Source: Phreatobacter aquaticus (GTDB lineage Bacteria > Pseudomonadota > Alphaproteobacteria > Rhizobiales > Phreatobacteraceae). Taken from it: DNA of 64,000 nt. The notes under the pieces were generated by a model that was not told where the DNA came from, did not search any database, and saw only the letters and a program-made list of their open reading frames with translations. Shown here one piece after another: positions 43,923 to 53,435 of this stretch. The DNA is taken from positions 1,698,828 through 1,762,827 of the forward strand of contig NZ_CP039865.1 in NCBI RefSeq assembly GCF_005160265.1. The letters run 5' to 3'. The stretch's first letter is position 1. Each line of letters starts with the position of its first letter. The position numbers and the translations under genes are program-made.

Positions 43923-44103
43923 CGCTCTGATTGCCTTGCCAGGCCGCGCCTGGTCCAGAATGGAGGGCTTGCCGCGCGGGGGACTTGCCCGGTTGCGATC
44001 ACGTCGCGGTGATCGTGTAACGGACCGGATCGTTTCGAAGAAAGGAGAGCTGGCGGCGCCGTTTCAATGGCCGGTCGCTTGGTCCTTCCTGGAGCGCTTT
44101 CCC

Positions 44104-44496
44104 ATGATCCACCGCAGAACCTTCATCGCCCTCACTGCCGTGACCTGCTCTGCAGCCTATGCGGCGGCCTGGGCTGCCGGCCCCATTGCCTTTACCCCCT
44201 CGGCATTCCAGGCGGCGAAGGCCAGCGGCCAGCCGATCCTGATCGAGGTCACGGCGCCGTGGTGCCCGACCTGCCGGGCACAGAAGCCCATTCTCTCCGA
44301 ACTGACGGCCCAGCCGCGCTTTGCGGCCATGCGTGTCCTGACGGTCGATTTCGATAGCCAGAAGGACGTGCTCCGCTCGCTCAACGTGCAGATGCAGAGC
44401 ACGCTGATCGTCTTCAAGGGCGACCGCGAGGTCGGCCGGTCGTCGGGTGACACGAACCGTGCATCCATCGAGGCACTGCTGGCCAAGACTCTCTGA
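44104..44496 (+). CDS. Secreted thioredoxin-like protein
   Basis: A 130-residue thioredoxin-fold protein. The first 25 residues form a signal peptide with a twin-arginine-like start (MIHRRTFIALTAV, cleavage after AWA). The redox motif APWCPTCRAQKP has Cys54 and Cys57. The expected location is the periplasm, where it would reduce substrates using electrons passed across the membrane by CcdA, encoded 12 bases downstream. The TPSAF-QAA start after the signal resembles TlpA/thioredoxin relatives. The chosen ATG removes an unrelated upstream extension. Confidence 0.87.
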   Translation: MIHRRTFIALTAVTCSAAYAAAWAAGPIAFTPSAFQAAKASGQPILIEVTAPWCPTCRAQKPILSELTAQPRFAAMRVLTVDFDSQKDVLRSLNVQMQSTLIVFKGDREVGRSSGDTNRASIEALLAKTL

Positions 44497-44508: not shown

Positions 44509-45228
44509 ATGATCGCAACCATCGGCCTGGCATTTCTCGCAGGTGTTCTGTCCATCCTCTCGCCTTGCGTCCTGCCTCTGCTTCCCGTCGTGCTGGGAGC
44601 GGCGGTCTCGGAGCATAGGCTGGGGCCGATTGCCCTGGCCGGTGGTCTCGCCTTGTCGTTCACCGTCATTGGATTGTTCGTGGCCGTCTTTGGGTTCGCG
44701 ATCGGCCTCGATGCAGGTTTCTTCCGGTATGTTGCGGCGGTGCTGCTGATCGGCGTGGGTGTCACCCTGATGATCCCCGCCGCTCAGATCCGCTTTGCTA
44801 CCGCTGCCGGCCCGCTGTCCAATTGGACGGAGCAGCGGTTCGGCGGACGCTCGACCAACGGCCTCTCCGGCCAGTTCGCCGTTGGCCTGCTCCTCGGAGC
44901 GGTCTGGAGCCCCTGTGTCGGGCCGACGCTTGGTGCGGCGTCCCTGCTTGCGGCGAGGGGGGAAGCGCTGGGCTCCGTGGCGCTGACGATGCTCGCCTTC
45001 GGCATCGGTGCCGGATTGCCCCTGGCGCTTCTGGGGCTCCTGTCGAGAGAGCGCCTGCTGCGCCTGCGCGACCGCATGCTCAGTGTCGGCAAGACCGCCA
45101 AGGTTGCGCTTGGCGGTGTGTTGGCTCTGGTCGGTGTCCTGATCATCAGCGGCCTCGACAAGCGCATCGAGACCTGGCTCACCAACATCGCGCCAGACGC
45201 ACTCATATCGCTGACAACGCGCTTCTAG
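44509..45228 (+). CDS. ccdA: Cytochrome c biogenesis/thiol-disulfide transporter CcdA
   Basis: A 239-residue inner-membrane protein with six hydrophobic segments. It has the paired redox cysteines Cys20 (LSILSPCVLPLLP) and Cys136 (VWSPCVGPTLGAAS) of the CcdA/DsbD transmembrane domain. It passes electrons from cytoplasmic thioredoxin to periplasmic thiol proteins, probably the thioredoxin-like partner just upstream. Its 3' end overlaps the convergent SMP-30 gene's stop by four bases. Confidence 0.92.
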   Translation: MIATIGLAFLAGVLSILSPCVLPLLPVVLGAAVSEHRLGPIALAGGLALSFTVIGLFVAVFGFAIGLDAGFFRYVAAVLLIGVGVTLMIPAAQIRFATAAGPLSNWTEQRFGGRSTNGLSGQFAVGLLLGAVWSPCVGPTLGAASLLAARGEALGSVALTMLAFGIGAGLPLALLGLLSRERLLRLRDRMLSVGKTAKVALGGVLALVGVLIISGLDKRIETWLTNIAPDALISLTTRF

Positions 45229-51262: not shown

Positions 51263-51895
51263 CTACCAGGCCAGGACGCGGCGGCCGATGGCTGCACCCA
51301 GAAGCGTCATCAGGCCGATGGCGATCGTGTACCAGGTGACCACGAACAGCAGTGAATCGTCGATGCAGTGGATGCCGTAGAAGAAGCCTGCCACGACACC
51401 TGCCGCGAAACCGGCAATCGCGCCGGCCAGTGCGGTCTGCGACGGAGCCGAGGCCCGCATGGCGGTCATGATCAGCGCTAGCGGTCCGGCTGCCATGAGC
51501 GGAATGGACACCAGGCAGAATGCCCAGTTTCGTCCAACCAGGCGCGAACCGTAATTCGCCGGGGCCTGAGTTGCCAGTTCATGGCCGATGCCGAAGACCA
51601 GCAGCGCCACAGGCAGGATCAGCACGGCTTTCGGCAAGTGCCCCTCAGGCCGTGCGACGGCATGCAAGAGCGCGATGGCCGCGACCACAAGGGTCGCGAT
51701 CAGCAGCATCTTGAGGTCGAACAGCATGGTGGTCGCAGCCACCAGAAGATCAGGCCGCGGCTTGATCACGAGCATGAGCAGCGCGAAGGCCACAGCTGCG
51801 GACATGGCGAGCGCGAGGGTCAGGCGCTTCCCGACAGGCGCTTCCGTCAGGGTGGCATCGCGCGACAGGGCGGCGATCAGGTCATCGGTCTTCAT
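51263..51895 (-). CDS. nrsF: NrsF family anti-sigma factor (DUF1109)
   Basis: A 210-residue inner-membrane protein with about six transmembrane helices and a short N-terminal cytoplasmic part (MKTDDLIAALSRDATLTEAP). This is the arrangement of NrsF/DUF1109 proteins that hold an ECF sigma factor inactive at the membrane. The C-terminal helix FFYGIHCIDDSLLFVVTWY contains the conserved GxHCxDDSxxF-like motif, whose cysteine may take part in sensing. It starts three bases after the stop of its cognate sigma factor gene. Confidence 0.88.
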   Translation of the reverse strand: MKTDDLIAALSRDATLTEAPVGKRLTLALAMSAAVAFALLMLVIKPRPDLLVAATTMLFDLKMLLIATLVVAAIALLHAVARPEGHLPKAVLILPVALLVFGIGHELATQAPANYGSRLVGRNWAFCLVSIPLMAAGPLALIMTAMRASAPSQTALAGAIAGFAAGVVAGFFYGIHCIDDSLLFVVTWYTIAIGLMTLLGAAIGRRVLAW

Positions 51896-51898
51896 GGC

Positions 51899-52447
51899 TC
51901 AGACACTCCCCCGTAGCATCTTGGCAAGGCCGCCAAGGGCTCGGTGCAAGGCGACGCGCACGGCGCCTTCGCTCATCGACAGGGCGGCCGCCGTTTCGGC
52001 CGTGTTATGGCCGTCGACGAACATGGCCTCGATCACGGCCTTCTGGCCGCTTGGCAGGTTAGCCGCCAGTTTCATCACATCGCGAGTCGCGATCTCGGGC
52101 TCGTTGGACGGGGCGGGGATCGCCTCCGCGAATTCGTCGATATCGATATGACCGTGCGAGCCGCGCTTGCGCAGGCTGTCGATCAGCTTGTGCTTGAGAA
52201 TGGCGCGCAACCAGGGAACGACCGGCTCCGTTGGGATCCAGCTCGTCCGCTTGGTATGGATCGCGATCAGCGCGTCCTGCACGATATCCTCCGCTTCAGC
52301 ACCTGACCGGCCTGCACGCGATAGCCCGGAACGCGCTATGGCACGCAGGTGGGGGGTCACCTCGCGAAGGAACCGCCCATAGGCGGCTTCGTCGCCAGCA
52401 ATGCCCGCGCGCAGCCATGCACTCCAGTCGTCGTTGCGGTCTCTCAC
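51899..52447 (-). CDS. sigF: ECF sigma factor (SigF/ECF16 type)
   Basis: A 182-residue extracytoplasmic-function sigma factor. Region 2 includes EAEDIVQDALIAIHTKR and VPWLRAILKHKLIDSLRKR. Region 4 includes LPSGQKAVIEAMFVDGHNTA and MSEGAVRVALHRALGGLAK. The preferred GTG gives MRDRNDDWSAWLRAGIAGDE, matching relatives. An upstream GTG at 52516 would lie before the sigma-dependent promoter. With NrsF it forms a membrane stress switch known in Caulobacter for metal and oxidative stress. The inducing signal here is unknown. Confidence 0.87.
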   Translation of the reverse strand: MRDRNDDWSAWLRAGIAGDEAAYGRFLREVTPHLRAIARSGLSRAGRSGAEAEDIVQDALIAIHTKRTSWIPTEPVVPWLRAILKHKLIDSLRKRGSHGHIDIDEFAEAIPAPSNEPEIATRDVMKLAANLPSGQKAVIEAMFVDGHNTAETAAALSMSEGAVRVALHRALGGLAKMLRGSV

Positions 52448-52466
52448 GTCGGACCAGTCATCGGGT

Positions 52467-52492
52467 TTCGCTGCCTTCGTCGGGTTCGTTAC
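52467..52492 (-). promoter_or_regulatory. Predicted autoregulatory promoter of the ECF sigma factor/NrsF operon
   Basis: Read on the minus strand, GTAACG is followed after exactly 16 bases by CGAA. This agrees with the GTAACC-N16-CGAA element I recall for Caulobacter SigF, with one mismatch in the -35 part. It ends 19 bases before the chosen start codon, giving a short leader of about 10-14 bases. The match supports both the sigma subfamily and the downstream start. Confidence 0.7.
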
Positions 52493-52700
52493 AGGCCATG
52501 CTGGAAAAACTGTCACAATCTACGGGCAGAGCGGTCGCGCACACGCCGTTGTGACCAGAGCTAGCACCGGACGCTGCATTTGCGAAGGTGTCGGGGCTTT
52601 GCGCAGCCGCCACTGCCGGTCATGATGCTGCGCGCGTCCGCAGGCGCAAAAAAAGAGCGTCCCTGACCGTCATGCCTCGCACGTCCGCGTTCTCCATCTC

Positions 52701-53435
52701 ATGAATTCCCTCCGCTTCCTGAAGGACCGCCGCGTCCTCGTGATCGGCGCCATCGCCTTGGTGCTGCTGGCTCTGCAGTTTTCCGGCCTCGGCAAGGCGC
52801 TCACGATGGAGATGCTACGGACCCATCGCGCCGATCTCGGCGCCTGGGTTGAGGCTCATCGCGTGCTGGCTGCCGTCTGCTATCTCGGCATCTACATCGC
52901 CGTTGCCGCCCTTTCACTGCCGGGCGGGGCTGGACTGACGCTGATCGGTGGATTCCTGTTCGGTCCGGTCCTCGGGGGCTGCCTCGCAGTCCTGGCCGCA
53001 AGTACGGGGGCCGTTCTGGTCTTCCTGTTCGCTCGTCGCCTGTTCGGCGACGACGCCGTCGGGCGGCTCGGGCCGAAAGCTGCGAGCCTGGCGGCGAACA
53101 TTCGGGCCAATGCCTGGTCCTACCTGCTGGTCTTGCGGCTCGTGCCGCTGTTCCCGTTCTTCCTGGTCAATCTCGTCCCCGCCTTTGTCGGTGTGCGGCT
53201 GAAGGTTTTTGCGCTCACGACCGTGTTCGGCATCATTCCCGCGACCTTTGTCTTCGCGCTGGCCGGCTCCGGCCTTGGGCGGGTGTTCGATAGCGGCGAG
53301 GCCTTCTCGGTGAAATCGGTCCTGACACCGGAAATTTGGGGCGGTCTCCTCGGTCTGGCGCTTCTGTCGCTTGCCGGCATTCCCCTGCGTCGACATTTCG
53401 AGGCGCGCCGGAACTGTTCCCAGCCCCGCCCCTGA
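52701..53435 (+). CDS. TVP38/TMEM64 (DedA-like) family membrane protein
   Basis: A 244-residue inner-membrane protein with about six hydrophobic stretches. The hallmark segment SLPGGAGLTLIGGFLFGPVL (proline-glycine then GG-x-FGP) and the later LRLVPLFPFFLVNLVPAFVG are the VTT-domain re-entrant motifs. Such proteins are linked to lipid scrambling or transport, envelope integrity and metal tolerance, with no single proven activity. It is divergent from the sigma factor/NrsF pair, with a 253-base spacer holding nothing else I can identify. Confidence 0.88.
   Translation: MNSLRFLKDRRVLVIGAIALVLLALQFSGLGKALTMEMLRTHRADLGAWVEAHRVLAAVCYLGIYIAVAALSLPGGAGLTLIGGFLFGPVLGGCLAVLAASTGAVLVFLFARRLFGDDAVGRLGPKAASLAANIRANAWSYLLVLRLVPLFPFFLVNLVPAFVGVRLKVFALTTVFGIIPATFVFALAGSGLGRVFDSGEAFSVKSVLTPEIWGGLLGLALLSLAGIPLRRHFEARRNCSQPRP

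Follow-up and report, generated by a model that had tools for sequence, protein, structure and literature searches.

The prototype of this family of regulators is the SigF-NrsF pair of Caulobacter crescentus, for which the motif GTAACC-N16-CGAA and the two conserved NrsF cysteines C131 and C181 have been described (PMC3511200). In Bradyrhizobium japonicum the sigma factor EcfF is paired with OsrA, a six-helix DUF1109 anti-sigma factor with cysteines C129 and C179; the EcfF regulon includes three methionine sulfoxide reductases and responds to peroxide (PMC3420878). The ECF16 pair BcrS-AbcS of Brucella melitensis has a TGTAAC/GCGAAT promoter at its own operon, and BcrS is autoregulated, induced by hypochlorite and controls msrPQ-like genes (PMC8315932). 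For a fourth ECF16 pair, RpoE7-EcfR7 of Sinorhizobium meliloti, two sites of the same promoter type were predicted, one at its own operon and one at an operon resembling CC3254-3257, and the reporters showed no rise with peroxide, cadmium or chromate (PMC6180224).

The window, i.e. the whole stretch of 64,000 nt of Phreatobacter aquaticus DNA that was analysed, contains two adjoining genes comparable to these pairs:

51899..52447, minus strand: ECF16-type sigma factor gene, sigF/ecfF-like, 182 aa (Pfam and NCBIfam NF009165)
51263..51895, minus strand: nrsF-type anti-sigma gene, 210 aa (PF06532, 161.8 bits)
51515..51517, minus strand: codon of C127, counterpart of OsrA C129 and NrsF C131 by position and spacing
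51365..51367, minus strand: codon of C177, counterpart of OsrA C179 and NrsF C181 by position and spacing

The sigma protein consists of regions 2 and 4 only, with both Sigma70_r2 and Sigma70_r4_2 over the Pfam cut-off, and is 76-82% identical to 11 other sequences from the genus. It scores 215.9 bits with the NCBIfam model NF009165 (cut-off 198), which is the nearest test behind the label ECF16-type. A gap of 3 nt separates the sigma stop codon from the nrsF-type gene. Like OsrA, its product appears to span the membrane six times (six hydrophobic segments, from hydropathy peaks). It is a member of the Pfam NrsF family (PF06532, DUF1109/NrsF) and lies outside the narrower NCBIfam equivalog NF042994, with which it reaches 95 bits at a curated cut-off of 300. 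C127 and C177 are its only cysteines, 50 residues apart as in OsrA, and both are present in all six genus rows that were recovered (6 of 13). The P. aquaticus genome contains one NrsF match. An earlier sequence-only reading of this DNA had proposed an ECF sigma/NrsF switch, in agreement with the NF009165 score over cut-off and the PF06532 match in the next gene; the identity of the locus as an ECF16 sigma/NrsF anti-sigma pair of an already known type is well supported.

Upstream of the sigma gene the following elements were distinguished:

52488..52492, minus strand: GTAAC, -35 box of the predicted ECF16 promoter, kept in 12/12 genomes of the genus
52467..52470, minus strand: CGAA, -10 box, 17 nt after GTAAC (CGTA or CGAA across the 12 genomes)
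52461, minus strand: predicted transcription start, placed 6 nt past the -10 box as mapped for B. japonicum ecfF
52445..52447, minus strand: GTG start codon of the sigma factor gene (GTG or TTG aligned in 12/12 genomes)
52514..52516, minus strand: upstream GTG of a longer open frame, upstream of the promoter boxes, rejected as start

The element GTAACGAACCCGACGAAGGCAGCGAA is located on the minus strand at 52492-52467, with 19 nt between it and the GTG at 52447. The sequence-only reading had noted it as GTAACG-N16-CGAA just upstream of the sigma gene, where it is indeed the only match in the window, and had compared it with a consensus for Caulobacter SigF. That consensus is genuine: GTAACC-N16-CGAA is the search motif given in PMC3511200. 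The sixth base of the element, a G, brings it closer to the Bradyrhizobium form GTAAC(g,a), and ecfF itself is likewise preceded by a promoter of the form GTAAC(g,a)...CG(t,a). A point against the ECF16 reading is the G in front of CGAA here, since CG is preceded by C or T in the motif of B. japonicum (PMC3420878).

A single match to GTAACS-N16-CGAA was found in the 64 kb, with 0.03 expected, and 3 of 100 shuffled versions contained one. Over the whole genome (4.97 Mb) there are three matches, and the pattern read backwards is commoner with 19, so that the raw genome count proves nothing. The comparison between genomes is more informative. GTAAC-N17-CG(A/T)A occurs 18-21 nt upstream of the aligned sigma start in 12/12 genomes of the genus. 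Since the 17-nt spacer has a mean identity of only 38% across these genomes, the fixed boxes have been held while the intervening sequence drifted. Among 80 named related loci, found with a sigma alignment and searched from 150 nt before to 30 nt after the match start, 71 have GTAAC-N16..18-CG(A/T)(A/T), a count that falls to 70 when A is required as the final base. Eight of the 80 (L117-L124) belong to the genus and are not independent of the 12 genomes; without them the box is present in 63/72, a figure to be read with the many Bradyrhizobium loci in mind, which are not independent of each other. Eight control boxes were each found in 0/80 of the named loci; in seven of them the first box was scrambled and in two CG was replaced by GC, one control combining both changes. 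The conservation in 12/12 genomes and 71/80 loci removes a chance origin of the box as a doubt, and the predicted promoter at the sigma gene is well supported by these comparisons.

The promoter boxes fall within the 5' extension of a longer frame, which is open from 52516 in this genome. If that frame were the true protein, the boxes would be a chance occurrence within a coding region, a reading that we consider hardly credible. The frame is closed or lacks a start in several relatives, and in 5/12 genomes (G001, G002, G004, G005, G007) no ATG, GTG or TTG is found between the aligned start and the nearest in-frame stop upstream of it, so that the argument on the start codon stands without the promoter. 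The NF009165 profile also begins there, its position 2 aligning to residue 24 of the long frame, which is the GTG at 52447, and the boxes are kept in 12/12 genomes over a diverging spacer. The claim that this GTG is the true start, put forward in the sequence-only reading because of the promoter, is therefore upheld on other grounds as well: the aligned GTG or TTG, the five genomes with no earlier start and the start of the profile. The start codon at 52447 is well supported by comparison, and has thereby been corrected by two independent lines of evidence. The start of B. japonicum ecfF was likewise moved downstream, its mapped transcription start overlapping the annotated ATG and lying 6 nt after the -10 box (PMC3420878). 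Following the ecfF rule, transcription would start near 52461 and the leader would therefore measure about 14 nt. One feature counting against the overall explanation is the ribosome site before the GTG, which looks weak from the sequence.

Two minor observations concern the same region. A five-codon ATG mini-frame (52461-52444, minus strand) opens at the nucleotide where transcription of this genome's sigma gene is predicted to start, and its TGA overlaps the sigma GTG start. In one other genome, G005, a second and divergent sigma-nrsF pair has its own box (L239; G005:C42:4354-4639), with another box (L240) in the opposite direction 260 nt off; this pair gave no match to the start pattern and is thus outside the 12-genome start comparison.

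Other members of the regulon were sought with the same box. Orthologues of four genes were collected from the 12 genomes, and the 400 nt upstream of each were scanned for GTAAC-N16..18-CG(A/T)A. Counts alone again carry no weight: across the genus GTAAC-N17-CGWA has 173 matches against 383 for the pattern read backwards, and because the forward pattern is the rarer one the genus counts give no support, which comes from position and conservation instead. Raw genome-wide motif counting was accordingly dropped as evidence for genome and genus alike. A probability of 5.6e-9 was also set aside, as it depends on taking 5% as the share of upstream positions.

The matches were grouped by homology of the downstream frame, using 80 chosen match regions together with automatic loci. 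Within the fetched loci 171 distinct matches with a 17- or 18-nt spacer were present, and 110 of these fall into at least 16 groups of three or more with a homologous downstream frame. The group sizes are lower bounds, as the genus place listing covers G010 in part and G011 not at all. The sigF/nrsF, msrQ, msrA, rpoH and gshA loci were brought into the grouping by protein searches in addition to the motif. A scrambled control, CTAAG-N17-CGWA, has 34 matches in the 12 genomes, and the 30 that were analysed yielded one three-member group; this control is limited, since it occurs about one fifth as often as the real pattern and no loci were added to it by protein search. The sigma genes themselves account for at least 13 of the grouped matches, including the second pair of G005. 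Four further groups are of three matches, one of which counts two matches in one locus.

In the P. aquaticus genome GTAAC-N17-CGWA has 11 matches. Eight are located within 100 nt upstream of a frame with relatives behind the same box: a response regulator, msrA, sigF, gshA, msrQ, an OpgC-type gene, a small CxxC protein and a TPR-like protein. The match at 2038182, one of the three to GTAACS-N16-CGAA, was kept as a possible target because a relative of the TPR-like protein (label by resemblance) stands behind the box in other loci, namely L203 and L243 of the genus and the Rhizobium locus L165. Behind two of the 11 no convincing gene is suitably placed. Another of the three matches to GTAACS-N16-CGAA (L001) was taken as chance, as it is antisense inside a long frame resembling an RND transporter. 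The sequence-only reading had itself named other copies of the element near regulon genes as a test, and such copies do precede msrA, msrQ-msrB and others. Separately, an identical 27-nt match to the box is found in L018 and at G001:C1:2949034-2949060; in L018 no open frame of at least 60 aa follows, and the match possibly lies within a conserved RNA gene.

The methionine sulfoxide reductase genes are the strongest of the predicted targets. The box precedes msrQ in 12/12 genomes, with GTAAC beginning 58-63 nt before the ATG, and msrA in 10/12 (not in G006 and G008). The mean spacer identity is 61% for msrQ and 41% for msrA, and it is the fixed boxes over diverging spacers that make these targets strong. 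In this genome msrB (PF01641) directly follows msrQ. MsrQ scores 129 with an NCBIfam cut-off of 130, and MsrA, RpoH and GshA are over their cut-offs. The remaining groups comprise an OmpR-type response regulator with a box in at least 10 genomes, and an OpgC-type gene in at least 9 cases, in two of which (L221, L277) another membrane protein comes first and the OpgC-like frame second. A YHS-like protein (22.1 bits, under the 30.3 of Pfam) has at least 7 box matches, a periplasmic thioredoxin at least 6 (one just 36% identical to that of the window), a catalase-like protein at least 5 and an FAD oxidoreductase, labelled by resemblance, at least 4. The small CxxC protein has a box in at least 7 genomes (L054, L215, L220, L228, L249, L264, L290) and starts 30 nt after it in L054. 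It is recognised by the motif NGYxCxxCTDxxxAKRGLxPENPTxDP, and the member in L215 has no match in Pfam or NCBIfam.

The evidence for rpoH and gshA is of a different kind. A box precedes rpoH in 9/12 genomes: eight were found by the scan, and that of G006, where the rpoH locus ends at the contig end, was taken from the genus place listing. The copy in G003 has an 18-nt spacer. Of the nine, eight are part of a block conserved over its entire length (the spacer is 73% identical on average in the eight copies where it measures 17 nt), and the box of P. aquaticus is at another position, 274 nt from the gene. No box was found for rpoH in G005, G008 and G011; G008 speaks for a promoter, since both boxes are changed there. 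Outside the genus, 3/26 rpoH loci (25 genomes, drawn from the 72 non-genus loci, with the default start position used in two rows) have a box upstream. The paralogue rpoH2 has it in 0/11, which serves as a rough negative control because match starts and not gene starts were used there. The box precedes gshA in 6/12 genomes; GTAAC is likewise present there in 6/12 and the -10-like CTTYCGWAA in 12/12, with a mean spacer identity of 78%. By this comparison rpoH is a probable target, and both rpoH (73%) and gshA (78%) are weaker candidates than the msr genes. The divergent VTT gene (52701-53435) was discarded as a target, there being no exact box in the window besides that of the sigma gene. In one related locus (L129) a box stands before a VTT-type protein 59% identical to the 52701-53435 product.

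In its Msr and thioredoxin/DsbD-type targets the predicted regulon resembles that of EcfF (PMC3420878). Unlike EcfF, however, the factor of P. aquaticus is predicted to act on rpoH, gshA, the OmpR-type regulator and the OpgC-type gene; rpoH, gshA and glutathione, looked for in the main text of PMC3420878, do not appear there as EcfF targets. The Caulobacter SigF regulon differs, consisting of DUF2282/DUF692/DUF2063 operons and a YedY-type gene, with the msrA homologues unchanged (PMC3511200). In Brucella the msr-type target operon adjoins the sigma gene, whereas here msrA and msrQ-msrB are located elsewhere in the genome. A literature search, with subscription journals mostly outside its reach, gave no paper that places rpoH or gshA under the control of an ECF16 factor and none that names both Phreatobacter and a sigma factor. 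The predicted regulon is what is new here, and it provides a prediction for Phreatobacter where the literature searched had none.

We consider it highly probable that an ECF16/NrsF switch, acting at its own promoter and at those of repair and redox genes, is as a whole the best explanation of these data. The data show the gene identities, the boxes with their conservation, the start codon through comparison and the target promoters at the level of sequence; we infer binding, release, signal, transcription start and autoregulation along the following lines. In the resting cell the membrane protein NrsF would keep the sigma factor bound, and would let go of it on an oxidising periplasmic signal, read via C177 and possibly via methionines. 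The freed sigma factor would start transcription at GTAAC-N17-CG(A/T)A promoters. Its own promoter would begin 45 nt upstream of the GTG start, giving the short leader described above. Other targets would be msrQ-msrB, msrA, the response regulator, the OpgC-type gene, gshA and the small CxxC protein, probably joined by rpoH and possibly by the TPR-like protein.

Autoregulation of the sigma gene is likely by analogy, in line with the reported autoregulation of bcrS in Brucella (PMC8315932) and with the 18.8-fold rise of B. japonicum ecfF in the absence of its anti-sigma factor (PMC3420878). Alternatively, the boxes may be real but a different sigma factor, acting on this same stretch, might account for most of the operon's expression, and the circuit would then not be self-amplifying in practice. 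The activity of the Caulobacter sigF promoter is just slightly lower in a sigF mutant, and the gene is stated not to be strongly autoregulated, with another factor contributing (PMC3511200); in Brucella, too, basal expression is thought to come from another factor (PMC8315932). A crude consensus scan of 51850-52750, however, gave no sigma-70-like site, and with the Brucella and Bradyrhizobium data we regard this possibility as unlikely, if worth keeping in mind.

A second question is whether the switch would answer to oxidation or mainly to metals, the latter having been proposed for Caulobacter SigF, whose regulon responds to dichromate and cadmium (chromium and cadmium being the metals concerned; PMC3511200). 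The 72 loci of other Alphaproteobacteria (L125-L196) contain 22 further boxes. At least 13 of these boxes, mostly on the strand opposite to the sigma gene, precede a small secreted cysteine protein, named by its resemblance to a DUF2282 precursor, so that bufferin-like precursors of this kind stand behind the same box beside the sigma gene in at least 13/72 of these loci. In Phreatobacter, on the other hand, none of the at least 16 target groups is DUF2282-like by the look of its downstream frames, and the recurrent targets include MsrA, MsrQ-MsrB, thioredoxin, a catalase-like protein and GshA. An answer mainly to metals thus seems improbable. An oxidising periplasmic signal is favoured because the recurrent target functions (repair of methionine sulfoxide, thiol chemistry and the handling of peroxide) agree with the published ECF16 systems. 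As the field of action of the switch, the target set points to oxidative stress and the repair of methionine rather than to metals. Of the methionine sulfoxide reductase or metal-response genes that the sequence-only reading had proposed to look for under the element, the former are found, as msrA and msrQ-msrB, and the latter are the less likely part. By predicting a methionine-oxidising stress, the target set makes the question of the ECF16 signal testable.

A subset of the predicted promoters is marked by a second element, TCAC-N6-GTG, far above its background rate. The element or its reverse form is found at most 120 nt upstream of the box of msrQ in 12/12 cases, of msrA in 8/10, of rpoH in 8/9, of the OpgC-type gene in 8/9 and of the FAD oxidoreductase in 2/4. 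Over the same distance it was found in 0/10 for the response regulator, 0/7 for the YHS-like and 0/7 for the CxxC proteins, 0/6 for thioredoxin, 0/6 for gshA and 0/5 for catalase. The counts for msrQ, msrA and rpoH are not independent, as the element was first seen by eye in these alignments; the OpgC-type, FAD and other groups were scanned after its discovery. The background is 1.2% of shuffled stretches and 2/511 window tiles per strand. TCAC-N6-GTG(A) is palindrome-like and its distance to the -35 box varies from about 12 to 87 nt (e.g. L050, L030, L051, L025); helical phasing relative to the -35 box, looked at by eye, was not retained.

Tentatively, and with slightly less confidence than would make it probable, the ECF16 factor may be placed upstream as a hub: it would directly feed methionine repair, rpoH, gshA and the OmpR-type regulator, and the promoters of msrQ-msrB, msrA, rpoH and the OpgC-type gene, which would have TCAC-N6-GTG(A) as an operator for a second regulator, would be under two-input control. 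If the links to rpoH and gshA are true, ECF16 would join oxidation in the periplasm to protein and thiol repair in the cytoplasm.

Copies of the second element within the window, and the genes next to one of them, are:

52542..52554, minus strand: TCACAACGGCGTG, TCAC-N6-GTG copy at the sigma gene, 62 nt upstream of the -35 box (1/12 genomes)
43999..44012, no strand assigned: TCACCGCGACGTGA, palindrome in minus-strand writing, TCAC-N6-GTG copy upstream of the thioredoxin-CcdA genes
44017..44039, plus strand: GTAAC-N14-CGAA, possible ECF16 promoter with spacing 14 instead of 17 (low confidence)
44104..44496, plus strand: periplasmic thioredoxin gene (ECF16 box at its relatives)
44509..45228, plus strand: CcdA/DsbD-type membrane protein gene (PF02683), presumably in the same operon

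The copy at sigF is found in this genome only. TCACCGCGACGTGA has one match in the window, with 0.44 expected. A working ECF16 promoter at 44017-44039 is doubtful, because the boxes are 14 nt apart and not 17. Relatives of the thioredoxin that do have an ECF16 box are known from five genus loci (59-65% identical) and from one more distant locus (36%). Of the B. japonicum genes in Table 3 of PMC3420878, the pair bll1027-bll1026 rises most when OsrA is lost, and from the domains described for it the thioredoxin-CcdA pair of the window is likely its counterpart.
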